64,000 nucleotides of DNA from Bacteroidales bacterium. Lineage in GTDB: Bacteria > Bacteroidota > Bacteroidia > Bacteroidales > VadinHA17. Shown here in pieces: positions 1,765-54,197 of this stretch (position 1 is its first letter; each line of letters begins with the position of its first letter). The position numbers and the translations under genes are program-made. The notes beneath the pieces are model-generated. The model did not search any database, had not been told where the DNA came from, and saw only the letters and a program-made list of their open reading frames with translations. The stretch spans positions 1-64,000 of the forward strand of contig JALONT010000015.1 of the NCBI GenBank assembly GCA_025454795.1, given 5' to 3'.

Positions 1765-1905
1765 TATTTTAAAACTGTATTGACCACAATCGGCAGGATT
1801 AAATTGACCATCTAAGGCCGGGGTTAAGTGCTTGTTATTTAATTTAATACGATAATCTCAGTTTAACTGGCCAAATGTGGTCAAGACGTCCGGCTTTTGC
1901 ATTGA
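1765..1905. repeat. Solo ends resembling IS21-family termini
   Basis: Minus-strand reading of 1770-1830 gives GGTCAATTTAATCCTGCCG followed by ATTGTGGTCAAT, a tandem GGTCAATTT/GTGGTCAA pattern known from ends of Bacteroidota IS21-like elements. A facing end lies at 1865-1901 (GTGGTCAAG...CCGGCTTTTGCA) and is matched 22 of 25 bases by 3616-3640. No istA/istB genes are present, so these are relics at most. Confidence 0.4.
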
Positions 1906-2171
1906 GATCGTTTTTCTTTTTTAGCCATTATAAATTCAAAAACATTTTCAGGTACTATTGACTTGAAAATTTGATGCTTTCTTTTATGTAATTGGAATTC
2001 ATATTTTTCAATTAAAGATAGGTACCTAGTTGCATTATATATTGTAATTGCTGAAAGCCATTCATAAAATTTGTATCTAGGTATTCCTTGACTCAAGGCG
2101 AGTCTTAAATCGTCTTCATCAAAAATATCTGGATAAATATCCTTCCAGGTCTTTATTTGACAGATACTCAA
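1881..2171 (-). CDS. Small hypothetical protein (96 aa)
   Basis: I do not recognise this protein. The frame opens at a TTG at 2171, with an in-frame stop about 18 bases upstream at 2187-2189, so there is no room for a much longer protein; an AGG lies 5' of the start. The product is soluble-looking and charged, with an aromatic core (FYEWLSAITIYNATRYL) and a basic C-terminus. The last residues are encoded inside the solo IS-like end at 1877-1901, so the true C-terminus may have been replaced by an insertion. It lies between the attC-like region and the ferredoxin-type gene and could be a cassette gene. A chance frame is possible. Confidence 0.4.
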   Translation of the reverse strand: MSICQIKTWKDIYPDIFDEDDLRLALSQGIPRYKFYEWLSAITIYNATRYLSLIEKYEFQLHKRKHQIFKSIVPENVFEFIMAKKEKRSQCKSRTS

Positions 2172-2263
2172 ACCTGCTTTAAATAATTATTTCAACCTCC
2201 AATTTACGATAACAATAAAAAACTCTAAATTTGATTGCATCTTTATAAGAATCAACATCAGCT

Positions 2264-3553
2264 ATGGCCCATCATAATACGATTAAGTACAATAGCTATA
2301 CGAAACTGACCAACAGATTGAATCTTCTTCCACAGGGAGCTTTACCTTCTGATCTGCTTTTTGAAATACTGAAGATCCTTTTCTCAGAAAGGGAAGCAGA
2401 GCTTGTTTCATCATTGCCGATAAAACCTTTTAATGCCAAAAAAGCTGCAGCAATCTGGAAGATCAGTGTACCGGATACAAAGAATATATTGAATGACCTG
2501 GCTGACAGAGGACTGCTGATTGATGCCTGTGAGAATGACGACGTGCTTTATTCCATGCCGCCTCCGATGGCAGGCTTTTTTGAATTTTCCCTGATGAGAT
2601 ACAGGAATGATATTGATCAGCAGACTCTTTCAGAGCTCTTTTATCAGTACATGAATATTGAGGAAGACTTTATTAAAAACCTCTTTACCACAGGTAAGAC
2701 CCAGCTGGGAAGGGTATACGTTAACGAAGAGGTTCTCTCAAATGAGAATGCTCTTCATGTGCTTGACTATGAGAGAGCATCGGAGGTAATGAAAACTGCT
2801 GATTCGATAGGAATCGGAATCTGTTATTGCAGGCACAAGATGGAACACCTGGGAAAAAACTGTGATGCTCCCATGGATATCTGCATGACATTTAACAAAA
2901 GCGCAGATTCACTGACGCGTCATGGAATTGCAAGAAGGGTTGATGTTGCTGAAGGGATAGATCTTTTGCAGAAAGCAAGGGATAATAACCTGGTGCAGTT
3001 TGGCGAAAACGTACAGGAAAAAGTGAACTTCATCTGCAACTGCTGTGGATGCTGCTGTGAAGCACTGATAGCTGCAAGGAAATTCGGATTTCTCAATCCC
3101 GTCCATACGACTAACTTTTTTCCGTTTATCGATGAAGATAATTGCAACGGCTGCGGAAAATGTGTTGCATTATGTCCGGTAGAAGCTATGACACTTGTAT
3201 CGTCTAACGATCCCGGCTTGCCAAACAGGAAAAAAGCAAAGCTACAGCAGGAGATCTGTCTTGGTTGCGCTGTCTGTCTTACTGGTTGTGATAAAAAGGC
3301 CCTTGAGCTTCGTTCACGCAAGGAACGTGTGATCACACCGGTTAATTCAGTTCATAGGGTTGTAATAATGGCAATTGAGAGGGGCAAGCTTCAGAATCTT
3401 ATATTCGACAGGCAGGTTATGTTCAGCCACAGAGCGATGGCGGCTGTATTGGGAGTGATCCTTAAGTTGCCACCTCTGAAACAGGCTCTCGCAAGCGAGC
3501 AATTCAAATCACGATATCTTATTTCGTTGATCAGAAGACAGAAATATTCGTGA
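2264..3553 (+). CDS. 4Fe-4S ferredoxin-type protein with N-terminal winged-helix-like region
   Basis: A 429-residue soluble protein. Residues ~20-100 look like a winged helix (AKKAAAIWKIS...TKNILNDLADRGLL). Residues ~190-215 carry a cysteine cluster (CYCRHKMEHLGKNC...DIC). A very dense cluster, CNCCGCCC, follows at ~258-265, and then two ferredoxin motifs at ~290-350: CNGCGKCVALCP and CLGCAVCLTGC. The second ferredoxin motif lacks the usual proline after its last Cys. The family is known in anaerobes as a 4Fe-4S dicluster or HTH-ferredoxin protein of unknown substrate; electron transfer or redox sensing is an inference. It starts at an ATG, stands alone upstream of the mazG-like gene, and has no signal peptide or membrane segment. 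Confidence 0.85.
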   Translation: MAHHNTIKYNSYTKLTNRLNLLPQGALPSDLLFEILKILFSEREAELVSSLPIKPFNAKKAAAIWKISVPDTKNILNDLADRGLLIDACENDDVLYSMPPPMAGFFEFSLMRYRNDIDQQTLSELFYQYMNIEEDFIKNLFTTGKTQLGRVYVNEEVLSNENALHVLDYERASEVMKTADSIGIGICYCRHKMEHLGKNCDAPMDICMTFNKSADSLTRHGIARRVDVAEGIDLLQKARDNNLVQFGENVQEKVNFICNCCGCCCEALIAARKFGFLNPVHTTNFFPFIDEDNCNGCGKCVALCPVEAMTLVSSNDPGLPNRKKAKLQQEICLGCAVCLTGCDKKALELRSRKERVITPVNSVHRVVIMAIERGKLQNLIFDRQVMFSHRAMAAVLGVILKLPPLKQALASEQFKSRYLISLIRRQKYS

Positions 3554-3584
3554 CCCTGAGAGTGACAAGTGGCATTTAATTCCG

Positions 3585-3640
3585 GACAGGAATGATCAAT
3601 TTACTCCGGCGAAGAGTGGTCAAGCCCCCCGGCTTTTGCA
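3585..3640 (+). repeat. Second copy of the IS21-like solo end
   Basis: The plus strand has GATCAATTTACTCCGGCG, then GTGGTCAAG...CCGGCTTTTGCA at 3616-3640, matching 1877-1901 at 22 of 25 positions. The two copies lie in the same orientation and bracket the 1.9-3.6 kb segment. Confidence 0.45.
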
Positions 3641-3765: not shown

Positions 3766-4104
3766 ATGAATGATATTCAATTACTTATTGATGAACTTGT
3801 TAAATTCCGTGATGCCCGGCACTGGGAACAGTTTCATAACACCAAGGATCTTGCATTGGCCATATCCATTGAGGCAGCAGAGCTGAATGAACTCTTTCTC
3901 TGGAAAACAACCGGGGAATCGGAGCAGGTTGATAAAAACAAGCTTAAGGAAGAGCTGGCTGATGTGCTTGCATTTACCCTGCTGCTTGCCGGGAAACATG
4001 GCTTTGATGTAAAGGAGATCGTTCTTGAAAAGATCAGGAAGAATAATGAGAAATACCCGGTGGATAAATCTAAAGGAACTGCGAAAAAATACAACGAACT
4101 ATAA
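3766..4104 (+). CDS. MazG-like nucleotide pyrophosphohydrolase
   Basis: A 112-residue all-alpha NTP-PPase of the MazG-like type, which hydrolyses (d)NTPs to monophosphate and pyrophosphate. The metal-binding pattern is visible: EAAEL (ExxE) at ~36-40 and EELADVLA (ExxxD) at ~63-70. A frame upstream extends to 3592, but its extra 58 residues are not MazG-like and run through an IS-like end, so the ATG at 3766 is chosen; the protein then begins NDIQLLIDELVKFRDAR, typical of the family. The next gene starts 4 bases after the stop, so the two are almost certainly cotranscribed. Pairing with a DUF2075 nuclease/helicase suggests a defence or nucleic-acid-stress role (inference). Confidence 0.85.
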   Translation: MNDIQLLIDELVKFRDARHWEQFHNTKDLALAISIEAAELNELFLWKTTGESEQVDKNKLKEELADVLAFTLLLAGKHGFDVKEIVLEKIRKNNEKYPVDKSKGTAKKYNEL

Positions 4105-4107
4105 CCA

Positions 4108-5988
4108 ATGCTGATCTACCAGGCACCTTCCGACAGATTTATTGATGATGTCAGAGAGAATACGATTTCTGATATCATGTCGGAAAATTATAAGGCAAGG
4201 CTTGGTAAATATCCGGGAGTCCCCGAATTTGTGTCATGGCAGAACAGCCTCTCGAGGGTAAGGGATCTGCTGGAACTTGGTAAAATACACGACACTTTTG
4301 TTGCACTTGAATATGAAGTACCATATAACCAGAGCCGCCTCGATTGCCTGCTTTTCGGAAAAGGTGCAAACAACATTTCAAATGTTATCCTCATTGAACT
4401 CAAACAGTGGTCGAATGTAAAGGCAATGGCAGAAGAAGGTAACTTTGTAGAAACATATACCGGAGGCAGGGAAAGGGTTGTCCCTCACCCTTCACAACAG
4501 GTAAAGGGATACCATAATTATATGCAGGGTTTTGTTGAAGAGTTTGAGAAAGAACCCACCCTCTCCCTTTTCAGCTGTGCCTATTGCCATAACTACTCCA
4601 GAACGGATGGGAAGGGTCTTCACAATCCGGTTTACAAAGATCTGATAGCAGAATTCCCACTCTTTACTAAAGAAGACACAAAGTTACTTGGGATCCGGAT
4701 CAGAGAACTGCTTGAAAATGGTTCCGGGTTTGAGATATTCAACCGTTTTATGCAGAGTCGGCTGCATCCTTCAAAGAAACTTCTTGAAAACGTGCACAAG
4801 ATCATTAAGAATGATGTTGTGTTCTCGCTGCTCAACGAACAGTTGGTTGCCAAGAACCTTATCCGGGCAAGGTGCAGGATGTCGGCAAAGAAAAATGAAA
4901 AATCGGTTATTATAGTTCATGGCTGACCAGGGACAGGAAAATCGGTTATCGCTTTAAATATTCTTGCAGAGGAAGCATTAAAGAAAAAGAATGTTTTGTA
5001 TGGCTGTAAATCAAAACCTTTCACATCCGGATTGCAGAAACTTGTTGGGAGAGGCGGTGAAATAATGTTCTCAAATCTCTTTCGTTTCATTCCCAGCAGG
5101 ACAAAGGAAAATGAATTTGATATACTTCTTATTGATGAAGCTCACAGGATAGAAAAGAACAGCAATCATCAATATACGAAGCCAGAAGACAGGACAGATA
5201 TGCCACAGATGGAGCAGCTGGTCAGGTGCGCAAAAACTACTGTATTCTTCATCGATGACAGGCAGAATGTTCGTTCATCAGAGGTTGGAAGTTCTGATCT
5301 TATAAGAGAGGCTGCTTTGAAATACACCGCTGAAATTCATGAGGTTACGCTTGAAACCCAGTACAGGTGCATGGGTTCGAATGATTACCTGTTATGGATT
5401 GAATCGGTTCTCGGATATTCTAATGAAGAGAGAATTTTCAGGAAGGATGACCAGTTTGACTTCAGAATTTTTTCTTCACCGCAGGAGATAATGGATATCC
5501 TTAATGAAAAGGAGAAAGAAAAGCCGAATTCTGCAAGGATGGTTGCCGGTTTCTGCTGGCCATGGAGCAATAAAACAGACAGTAACGGGGAACTTGTTAA
5601 AGATGTGAAGATCGGGGATTTTGCAATGCCCTGGGAGACACACGAAAAGATAACCTCAATACCAAAAGGTTATGTCAGGTGGTATGAATGGGCATATCGC
5701 CCGGAAGGAATTAAACAGGTGGGGTGTATTTACACTGCCCAGGGATTTGAATTCGATTATATAGGGGTGATAATTGGTAATGATCTGTGTGTGGATGTAT
5801 CTTCCGGAAGATTAGGGGCAGATATAAGCGCTACCAAAGACCCGATGCTGAGAAGAAGCATAGATAATTTCGAAAAGCATGTTAAGAACATTTACAGGAC
5901 ACTTCTTACAAGGGGAATGAAAGGGTGCTATGTTTATTTTACTGATAAGCACACTGAAGAGTATTTCAGGGAGAGGATGGAGAATTAA
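4108..5988 (+). pseudogene. PD-(D/E)XK nuclease plus DUF2075 (schlafen-group) helicase, interrupted by one TGA in Walker A
   Basis: One reading frame spans 4108-5988 with a single internal stop, TGA at 4924-4926. Upstream, residues ~75-110 show a PD-(D/E)XK nuclease pattern (RLDCLLF...VILIELKQW). Downstream is a DUF2075 superfamily helicase: the stop sits inside IIVHG(stop)PGTGKS, where the family has a second Gly in the P-loop, so one G-to-T change of GGA would explain it. Further motifs are intact: DILLIDEAHRI (Walker B), FFIDDRQNV (motif III-like), ETQYRC, and YTAQGFEFDYIGVIIG near the end. No frameshift is seen on either side. Either the gene is recently inactivated, it is a sequencing error, or the halves are made separately (no good start is seen before an in-frame TTG about 5 codons upstream of residue YGCKSK). 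It is coupled to the MazG-like gene. Confidence 0.85.
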
Positions 5989-6079
5989 AAATTTGATTAC
6001 TCAGGTTGATAAAATTATCCAGCACTGATTTTTTCTTTTCTGGCTTTTTAACCGAATTCAGTATACAATATTGTCGATT

Positions 6080-6260
6080 CCTGGTGGCACCACTTAAAAC
6101 AGAGCGAGAGTGAGAGCGAGTTGTGAGACGAGCGAACACTCTCGATCTGTTTTCTCTAATCTCACTCTCACTCTGTCTTTTCCAGATAGATCAACGTCTT
6201 GCGGGTTTTTGTTTTGATGGGGGTGACGGATTCGATGATGGATTTTGTAACGCGCACGTT
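6080..6260. repeat. Hairpin repeat family, copy 1
   Basis: The element starts CCTGGTGGCACCAC and has a long stem (aaaacagagcgagagtg at 6096-6112 pairing with cactctcgatctgtttt at 6137-6153). A second stem remnant with AGATCAACGTCTT and a T-rich tail follows, ending in GATGGATTTTGTAA. It matches 7268-7452 and 33590-33757. The rest of the gap up to 6588 shows no gene. Confidence 0.8.
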
Positions 6261-6588
6261 ATCAAGCAATTAGACAAGATTTTCAGATCATTTATGCCTT
6301 TTGGCGGGCTTTTTGTCAATTTTTATTATAAATATGTCTTTTCCTGATAGCAATTCAATTGATTCAAAATAGTTGGCTTGTTCTTGCTTTAATCTATCTC
6401 CTTCCCCTTTTACTTCACAAAAGAACCAATCTGTCTTGTCCTTATTGTAGCAGAATAAATCTGGGCATTAAGAGCGTTTTTCTTTTTTAGACGTTTATAG
6501 GTATTGGGGATGATAATCCGTGAAAGTGTGCGACCATAAAATGCTGCAAGTCGCACTACTGCAAGACCGTTCAAATTAAATCTTAACT

Positions 6589-7215: not shown

Positions 7216-7267
7216 AGAGTACACGATTTCATTGTTCAGTAAAGTTTTCAATAATCAACGGCCTATT

Positions 7268-7452
7268 CCTGGTGGCACCACACAAAACAGAGCGAGAGTG
7301 AGGGCGAGTCTTGAGACAAGCGAACACTCTCGTTCTGTTTTCTCAATACTCACTCTCACACTCACACAAACAAACCCGTAAGATAAACGTCTTACGGGTT
7401 TTTGTTTTTAATGGGGTGTCGGAATCGGTGATGGATTTTGTAATCTGCAAAT
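7268..7452. repeat. Hairpin repeat family, copy 2 (best conserved)
   Basis: It starts CCTGGTGGCACCAC. A 17-bp stem (7284-7300 with 7325-7341) has one non-Watson-Crick position. A second hairpin, AACCCGTAAG (7373-7382) with CTTACGGGTT (7391-7400), is followed by tttgttttt and looks like an intrinsic terminator. The tail is GATGGATTTTGTAATCTGCA. The 3' boundary is inferred from the match to the other copies. Confidence 0.8.
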
Positions 7453-7534
7453 ATTCAATCTGATACAGTTAATTTGTCAGGTACTAGGCAATTTTTCTTG
7501 ATAGGTTATATTTAAATAAATTGGAAATTTGTAG

Positions 7535-53045: not shown

Positions 53046-53124
53046 GGTAGTTGAAATTAATTGCAATTTCGAATAAGCTGATGGAGCATACCTGGACTTG
53101 TTGAAAATTCGAGCTTAGCTGAAT

Positions 53125-54197
53125 TTGGAAGTATCTGATCTTCTGAAAAAAAAGCAATACAAAATGCTGATTAAGATATATAATGACATTGTCAATTTTC
53201 TGGGTTTTGCCCGGAATCTCAGAAAATTGCGTTCGAAAATTAACATCAGTATCGATTTACCGGAAATAATTGCCGAATTTCCGGATTCCCACCCCAGAGG
53301 GTTTATAAAAGAATTTAAGAAGCGAAGAACGACTATTGTCGAAACCTATTTAAAGATCACCAACAGCCTCGATTCAGCCAGTTGAAACCAAAGAATTCAT
53401 GCACTAAGTCTGTTAGCTGAACATATTATTTATTCACGTTACTTAAAAATGCCCCTTAATGCTGCAAGAGTACAGCTTACGCTGATGAAGGAAGTTGTTA
53501 AAAACCGCGATAGCAAACGTGTTCAGCTTGAATTGATGCGCGATTTTACAGTTTCTTCATTTGGACATCCAAGGACAATAAGATACTTCCTTAAAAAACT
53601 GGATATTATTGAGGTCCCGGAAACTGGTGAAGAGCTAAAAGATTTAAACATGGGTTGGGATTTTCATGTTCACGATAGCACCTCATATGGCCGTAAACTA
53701 CCAACCCGGCAATTAAATATTTTATCGTTATTCTGATTGGGTTTATCCCTGCTTATCTTACTGTCGGATTGGAATATGCACTTATATGGTTTGCCATTAC
53801 CGGTTCGCGAAATATGTTTGTCGATGTGATTTCAGGGAATGGTTTTAGACCGCGGGAGTGGCACTTAAACGACATCAATTGGACCAATTTTGCAATGCTT
53901 GACATGATTTATTTTGCAAAAGAAAGCACAAGGGCTAAGACCGCATTAAAAAAGCACATGATTCCACAACAAAGTCTGCCAGATAAATTAAGAGGCTCTT
54001 TAAAAAGGAAAAATGAACGGATTGCACCTAATGAATCGTATTTTGAACTCAAAAAACGGATCGATAGCCGGAATCGGTTTAATGAATTGATTGATTACAT
54101 AATAGAACACTACAATCAGGAACAACGGCTCTTCATGATTAAACTGGTATCAGAAAATTACTTTAAACTGCAAAAATGGCTCCAACGAATTGTCTGA
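53125..54197 (+). pseudogene. Remnants of a large Bacteroidota protein, several lesions
   Basis: Three pieces read as one gene. Piece 1 (53125-53385) ends in a TGA directly followed, in frame, by RIHALSLLAEHIIYSRYLKM and piece 2 (to 53736), which holds GWDFHVHDSTSYGRK, a PHP-like DFHVH motif. A frameshift near 53700-53720 leads into piece 3: YFIVILIGFIPAYLTVGLEYALIWFAITGSRNMFVDVISGNGFRPREWHLNDINWTNFA, a membrane segment, and a coiled charged tail to 54197. The pieces seem too short for the original, so internal deletions are likely. I do not recognise the parent with confidence; a PHP-like plus membrane-domain protein is suggested. Confidence 0.65.

Follow-up and report, generated by a model that had tools for sequence, protein, structure and literature searches.

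A candidate anti-phage pair of a MazG-like pyrophosphohydrolase and a nuclease-helicase, with an in-frame TGA in a Bacteroidales genome

Genes and motifs at the locus

The window (the whole stretch of Bacteroidales DNA analysed, 64,000 nucleotides) carries two adjoining genes on its forward strand. The upstream gene (3766–4104; ATG 3766, TAA 4102–4104) encodes a MazG-like all-alpha nucleotide pyrophosphohydrolase of 112 amino acids, for which a Pfam scan returned PF12643 (MazG-like; E 2.3e-20, 73 bits vs. a cut-off of 27). When PDB was searched with an alignment profile, the nearest solved relatives were 4qgp (7.9e-31) and dCTP pyrophosphatase 1 (3.8e-29). Enzymes of the MazG type bind metal through an acidic pattern of ExxE and ExxD, and the four metal-binding residues expected of MazG/dCTPP1-type enzymes are present in the window protein (E36, E39, E63, and D66, invariant in 13/13 aligned sequences). 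Judged by profile and residues, the protein is a predicted member of the dCTPP1-type NTP pyrophosphohydrolase family. NCBIfam gave no match above cut-off, and none of the PADLOC models matched this partner.

The second gene follows after 3 bases (4105–4107) and in the same frame, not after four bases as the original prediction had it. It occupies 4108–5988 on the forward strand, begins with ATG at 4108, comprises 626 codons (4108–5985) with one interruption, and ends at a normal stop (TAA 5986–5988). With the interrupting TGA read as tryptophan, residues 265–613 match PF09848, the SF1-type Schlafen group 3 helicase family (2.9e-81; 273.9 bits vs. a cut-off of 24). We take PF09848 to be the family formerly named DUF2075, and the MazG-like and DUF2075 identities first proposed for the two genes are both borne out. 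The Walker A or P-loop region lies at 4921–4944 (residues 272–279, HG-stop-PGTGKS) and the Walker B motif DEAH, invariant in the helicase alignment, at 5134–5145 (residues 343–346).

Ahead of the helicase domain lies an N-terminal PD-(D/E)XK-type nuclease region (4108–4860, forward strand). Nucleases of this type show the pattern D...ExK plus QxxxY, which is present in 24/24 aligned N-terminal regions, and five residues are invariant in all 24 homologues: D79 (4342–4344), E97 (4396–4398), K99 (4402–4404), Q131 (4498–4500), and Y135 (4510–4512). In the window protein, Pfam returned no nuclease family at E 0.001, and three of the nine relatives scanned gave sub-threshold NERD/PDDEXK_9 matches. 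A GIY-YIG nuclease takes the place of this region in L033 and L036, the two proteins scanned from a group of five more distant homologues (L033–L037). The helicase was modelled from 12 sequences with a mean pLDDT of 63.1 and low pLDDT in the nuclease part, which limits reliance on the model to the helicase core. Among the top Foldseek matches of this model in PDB are RecD2, SLFN11, IGHMBP2, UPF1, and Dna2.

Some relatives are longer. Twenty distinct frames from 19 genomes (L014, L019, L022, L085–L088, L093–L101, L103, L033, L036, and L037) run 157–202 residues beyond the helicase, and Peptidase_S24 was the Pfam family assigned there in six (L014, L019, L022, L087, L033, and L036) of the nine relatives scanned. 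LexA and UmuD cleave themselves by means of a Ser-Lys dyad at an Ala-Gly or Cys-Gly site. Among the long forms, 20/20 have the G-x-S-M serine and the lysine of such a dyad, and 19/20 have the Ala-Gly or Cys-Gly pair (absent in L095; the L085 site was read by eye). The window protein, whose last residue is 626, has no S24 domain.

The TGA at codon 273

The in-frame TGA (4924–4926, forward strand) is the sole internal stop across the 626 codons. Codon 273 is an x position of Walker A (GxxxxGK[ST]), and the stop comes right after the retained first glycine of the motif (272). All 14 of the nearest homologues found (13 loci, L016 among them being partial, plus G034) encode glycine here and lack internal stops. 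An uninterrupted Walker A motif is thus present in 14/14 relatives and absent in the window copy, whose nuclease motif residues, Walker B motif, and remaining frame are intact. On all these points the original prediction, which described a single 626-codon frame with one TGA in the P-loop, glycine in its relatives, and an otherwise clean frame, agrees with our data. The TGA cuts the product after residue 272 and leaves a nuclease region without the motor; barring a mistake in sequencing or assembly at this codon, no working protein is therefore expected from the window copy.

A codon-usage scan of the window returned four sites at which two coding-looking stretches (at least 60 codons) are joined in frame at a single stop. 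Besides the TGA at 4924, two are ordinary gene ends according to the ORF table, and the third, at 53383, lies in a decayed fragment. This fragment (53119–53720, ~205 codons) contains a TGA at 53383, and its relatives G045 and G052 have open frames of 924 and 935 codons; it is a decaying pseudogene, and gene decay therefore happens within this window. Across loci, the helicase is interrupted in 7/74 (the window, L035, L055, L091, L097, L115, and L122), many of these seven being from draft genomes in which interruptions could be errors. The breaks fall near codons 244 (L055), 300 (L091), 336 (L097), 546 (L035), and 598 (L115), and at several positions in L122. Those of the window, L055, L091, and L097 cluster near the nuclease-helicase junction and leave the nuclease part, but because this interval was picked after viewing the data, the cluster is a lead only and may be due to chance.

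A loss-of-function mutation of recent date or a mistake in assembly accounts best for the TGA. Both causes had been named in the original prediction and both fit, whereas the phase-variable or off state that it also offered finds no support: a single codon is changed, 0/14 relatives share the TGA, and no repeat tract is visible by eye at the site (the repeat tool omits runs of 1–3 base units). An assembly or sequencing error in an intact gene is a serious contender to which we give substantial, though minority, weight. The window is contig 79 of a draft assembly that totals 3,294,153 bases over 86 contigs, with a completeness of 99.11%. Compared to L010, dN is 0.036 before codon 273 and 0.055 after it, with dS values of 0.91 and 0.85, and the frame was therefore constrained until recently. 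Likewise in favour of an error are the universal glycine in the relatives and the 11 unique amino-acid changes of the window copy (stop included), vs. 18, 21, and 27 in L010, L011, and L012. Real loss gains from two radical changes, W253R and Y256C, within 20 codons upstream of the stop, as relaxed constraint gives, although local errors would give them too; it also gains from the seven interrupted loci, which suggest that loss may not be rare, even if many of these are likewise drafts. Very improbable, in our estimate, is readthrough or recoding of the TGA (e.g., as selenocysteine) that would yield full protein at a low level. Another residue at an x position would keep the Walker A consensus, the remaining frame is conserved, and UGA followed by C is a leaky stop context. 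Nevertheless, no tRNA-Sec match exceeded the cut-off in the 99.11%-complete draft genome, the eight sub-threshold matches are ordinary Ser, Leu, Tyr, and Phe tRNAs, the TGA is found in none of the 14 relatives, and TGA terminates ordinary genes of the window such as the Fe-S gene at 2264–3553. Selenocysteine was rejected on the tRNA-Sec result in the draft. Taken alone, the single TGA is of little weight; it marks one broken or mis-assembled copy.

Linkage, distribution, and surroundings of the pair

Using profiles of 14 helicases and 13 MazG-like proteins, we found the MazG-like gene directly upstream of the helicase (same strand, at most 154 bases) in 50/59 assessable loci of bacteria and archaea, and a recount from start codons again gave 50/59. 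The two genes are within 30 bases of each other or overlap in 45 of the 50 linked loci, with overlaps in 15 (14 of them by 4 bases). By set, linkage was found in 12/14 close relatives (window included), 10/12 loci of the phylum search, 6/7 from the phylum of G454, 16/17 from that of G455, and 6/9 from that of G456, where the other three have no MazG in 1.5 kb upstream. Three loci do not enter these counts: L016 and L102, for lack of usable upstream sequence or as a C-terminal fragment, and L097, which is a broken second copy in G1219 whose MazG gene is cut; frame-broken MazG genes in L105 and L115 and the L095 gene, cut by a contig end, were counted as present. Among the nine unlinked loci, MazG lies 4.4 kb upstream in G006, 20 kb upstream in G025, and 1.1 kb upstream in L026, in which one frame of 363 residues (413–1501), matching no Pfam family, separates it from the helicase. 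Linkage also holds with the GIY-YIG N-terminal form, and in the more distant L033–L037 MazG likewise lies next to the start of the helicase gene. Other genes were seen in upstream positions: an HNH-domain protein directly precedes the helicase of L027 (520–1467), a locus in which no MazG was found, and a protein with an MrcB N-terminal domain and a sub-threshold HNH match precedes MazG in L051 (3548–4612).

The linkage put forward in the original prediction, which had set scattered occurrence of the genes against it, thus holds at 50/59 assessable loci, yet MazG is directly upstream in 4/12 plasmid, phage, and IMG/VR loci fetched (of 21 matches). In this set, MazG is 2.8 kb downstream in L123, 2 kb upstream in L122, and 117 bases away on the other strand in L039; L125 has a weak partial match and four loci have none. 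Among 60 genomes (the window's included), the MazG-like profile matched in 5/5 genomes with the helicase vs. 3/55 without it. The latter three are G026, whose MazG is truncated and adjoins a weak helicase stub, and G044 and G055, with MazG beside an alanyl-tRNA synthetase and an AAA gene, respectively (neighbours read by eye). The two partners' protein distances were weakly correlated (r 0.20, 45 loci), with 0/5000 permutations as high.

The pair is patchy across bacteria and archaea, with few carriers in each group. In the phylum sample, the helicase was found in 12/394 other genomes (E 1e-30), five of them matching the C-terminal half only, and in the phyla of G454, G456, and G455 in 7/395, 10/387, and 17/279 other genomes, respectively (E 1e-60). 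Carriers include plasmids from Priestia to haloarchaea, a Microcystis phage record, and viral-contig records. Locus content turns over within the genus. G010 is 98% identical to the window over 1899–3580, where the match ends, and neither the MazG-like gene nor the helicase was found in G010; a search for an exact empty site returned none. In G006, the order is MazG, a 26-residue N-terminal helicase stub, 4.3 kb of other sequence, and the full helicase, and a weaker stub of 23 residues is present in G026. G025, with its distant MazG, carries a C-terminal stub with 88.7% DNA identity over 150 bases to the G034-type helicase, and G034 itself shares 87% identity with the window in MazG and 59% in the helicase.

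In the window, an Fe-S gene and a methyltransferase gene border the pair (ORFs read), with dispersed repeats nearby, and the pair's neighbours do not resemble a defence island (ORF list; PADLOC scan of 47 proteins). The dispersed intergenic repeat downstream of the pair (6083–6495, no strand assigned) has an 85% match at G010:C92:5668–6064, and its portion at 6188–6492 has a 90% match in G000:C85 (20618–20920), with partial copies in the window and in G000:C58. Copies of this repeat family at 6083–6495 and 7265–7458 flank the pair, and the repeat at 6083–6495 is a possible recombination substrate. The halves of a 61-base stretch (1869–1929) recur at 3608–3640 and 6465–6495, on either side of the pair, as if such a stretch had the pair inserted between its halves.

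Elsewhere, defence-type genes were found close to the pair. Beside the G006 copy are AIPR, a DUF4420 nuclease, and a Z1-like protein (the last by reading only), a full PDC-S41 gene (7.2e-286) overlaps the G034 helicase downstream, and type I restriction genes lie near the Priestia locus. In L025, the pair is directly followed by another helicase of its Pfam family, PDC-S41 (3944–6007), and weak tblastn similarity to this second helicase was found downstream in L022 (7809–8495) and L016 (1902–2192). PADLOC matched 137 families among 104 neighbour proteins from 15 hand-picked loci, and the 25 of these families listed include type I restriction, LmuA, MkoA, and Avs1a models; the control, 47 other window proteins from one genome, matched 17 families, many of them helicases by name. 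The neighbours thus come from 15 chosen loci and the control from one genome, and because the tally names families, not proteins, we do not claim enrichment.

Possible function and relation to known systems

The locus is probably a horizontally moving two-gene anti-phage unit that is broken in this genome. Considering sequence, we find a defence role of the pair plausible. It draws on the 50/59 linkage, the patchy distribution, the mobile records, the turnover of the locus, the defence neighbours, the relatives in PADLOC, the S24 dyad, and the Foldseek matches; counting against it are the surroundings in the window, the 4/12 linkage in the mobile set, MazG genes without a helicase, the r of 0.20, and the pLDDT of 63.1.

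Two other readings were weighed. A role for the pair in DNA repair or nucleotide-pool housekeeping, and not in defence, seems unlikely to us: MazG and dCTPP1 proteins are house-cleaning enzymes, the helicase is similar in fold to RecD2 and Dna2, and relatives carry an SOS-type S24 domain, but the patchy distribution, the mobile records, the turnover of genes at this site, and the homology to defence families are at odds with it. Improbable to a somewhat greater degree is that the genes adjoin merely as residents of variable islands and act separately. Such independence is suggested by the loci in which MazG is not directly upstream (9/59, three of them with MazG 1.1, 4.4, and 20 kb away, and 8/12 in the plasmid, phage, and IMG/VR set, three of them with MazG close by in another arrangement) and by helicases swapped beside a conserved MazG. 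It is opposed by the shared order and strand, the distances within 30 bases in 45/50 and overlaps in 15/50 linked loci, and the retention of the arrangement in distant phyla and with the GIY-YIG form.

If the pair is an anti-phage unit, the helicase would load on DNA intermediates of phage replication, and its ATP-driven movement may expose or activate the N-terminal nuclease. Replication intermediates would thereby trigger an attack on DNA, as is described for Nhi and Hachiman in passages of PMC12904381 and PMC12278908. The MazG-like partner would hydrolyse nucleoside triphosphates, by homology dCTP or modified dCTP, which could lower the pool for phage replication or clear modified phage precursors. 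In the long forms, RecA-ssDNA filaments would induce self-cutting of the S24 domain, so that the activity of these forms may be tied to DNA damage. More speculatively, the pair may belong to a modular, undescribed defence family of bacteria and archaea, in which a dCTP-pyrophosphatase-like MazG protein is joined to a Schlafen-group-3 helicase bearing either of two interchangeable nucleases (PD-(D/E)XK or GIY-YIG), often LexA/UmuD-gated, coupling an attack on DNA and the nucleotide pool to the RecA-ssDNA of phage replication; we hold this wider view only tentatively. A defence unit of this kind would join nucleotide-pool attack and nuclease-helicase attack on DNA, strategies that are usually apart, and its S24-bearing members would bear on SOS-controlled immunity via self-cleavage inside an effector.

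From the sequence comparisons, we think that the pair combines an anti-phage nuclease-helicase with a dCTP-pyrophosphatase-like protein, and that it is related to AbiO, Nhi, and PDC-S41 but belongs to none of them. In the open-access journal literature, searches for a MazG-like/helicase pair turned up no account of one. The helicase family itself is already known in this context: PF09848 is treated as an Abi marker, being among the Abi Pfams for mapping defence islands of E. coli in a section of PMC10121019, and the helicase domain recurs, with partial matches, in Nhi and AbiO.

Like the window protein, Nhi is a single chain of nuclease and helicase, and the PADLOC Nhi profile matches the window helicase at 1.2e-12; the best match, however, covers positions 198–376 of 470 and not the N-terminal part. 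According to passages of PMC12904381, Nhi senses phage SSB and nicks and unwinds DNA, and these passages mention no MazG partner or S24 domain. The AbiO profile matches the window helicase domain at 2.3e-11 over positions 178–372 of 468, whereas the protein described here is longer and has a MazG partner. As neither match is full-length, assignment to Nhi or AbiO was rejected. PDC-S41, a candidate system in PADLOC, matches the N-terminal and helicase parts of the window protein weakly (1.1e-14), and with 51.7 bits for the window vs. 947.8 bits for a true member it was set aside as a different family. Hachiman (HamAB) also combines a nuclease and a helicase, which sense DNA damage according to parts of PMC12278908, but in two chains and with a Ski2-like helicase, compared to one chain and a Schlafen-type helicase in the pair.

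The human group III Schlafen proteins share the helicase family with the window protein, which by sequence matched SLFN5 and SLFN11 in PDB weakly, in addition to the Foldseek match to SLFN11. They differ in the N-terminal half, which here is a PD-(D/E)XK-like or GIY-YIG nuclease; Pfam scans at E 0.001 for the window protein and at E 0.01 for nine relatives returned no Schlafen core (AlbA_2). DCTPP1/RS21-C6 is matched by the MazG-like protein over residues 13–112 at the profile E value given above, but here the protein is the operon partner of a nuclease-helicase, with dCTP activity predicted by homology. The pair also offers prokaryotic relatives for the helicase half of the human Schlafen proteins.
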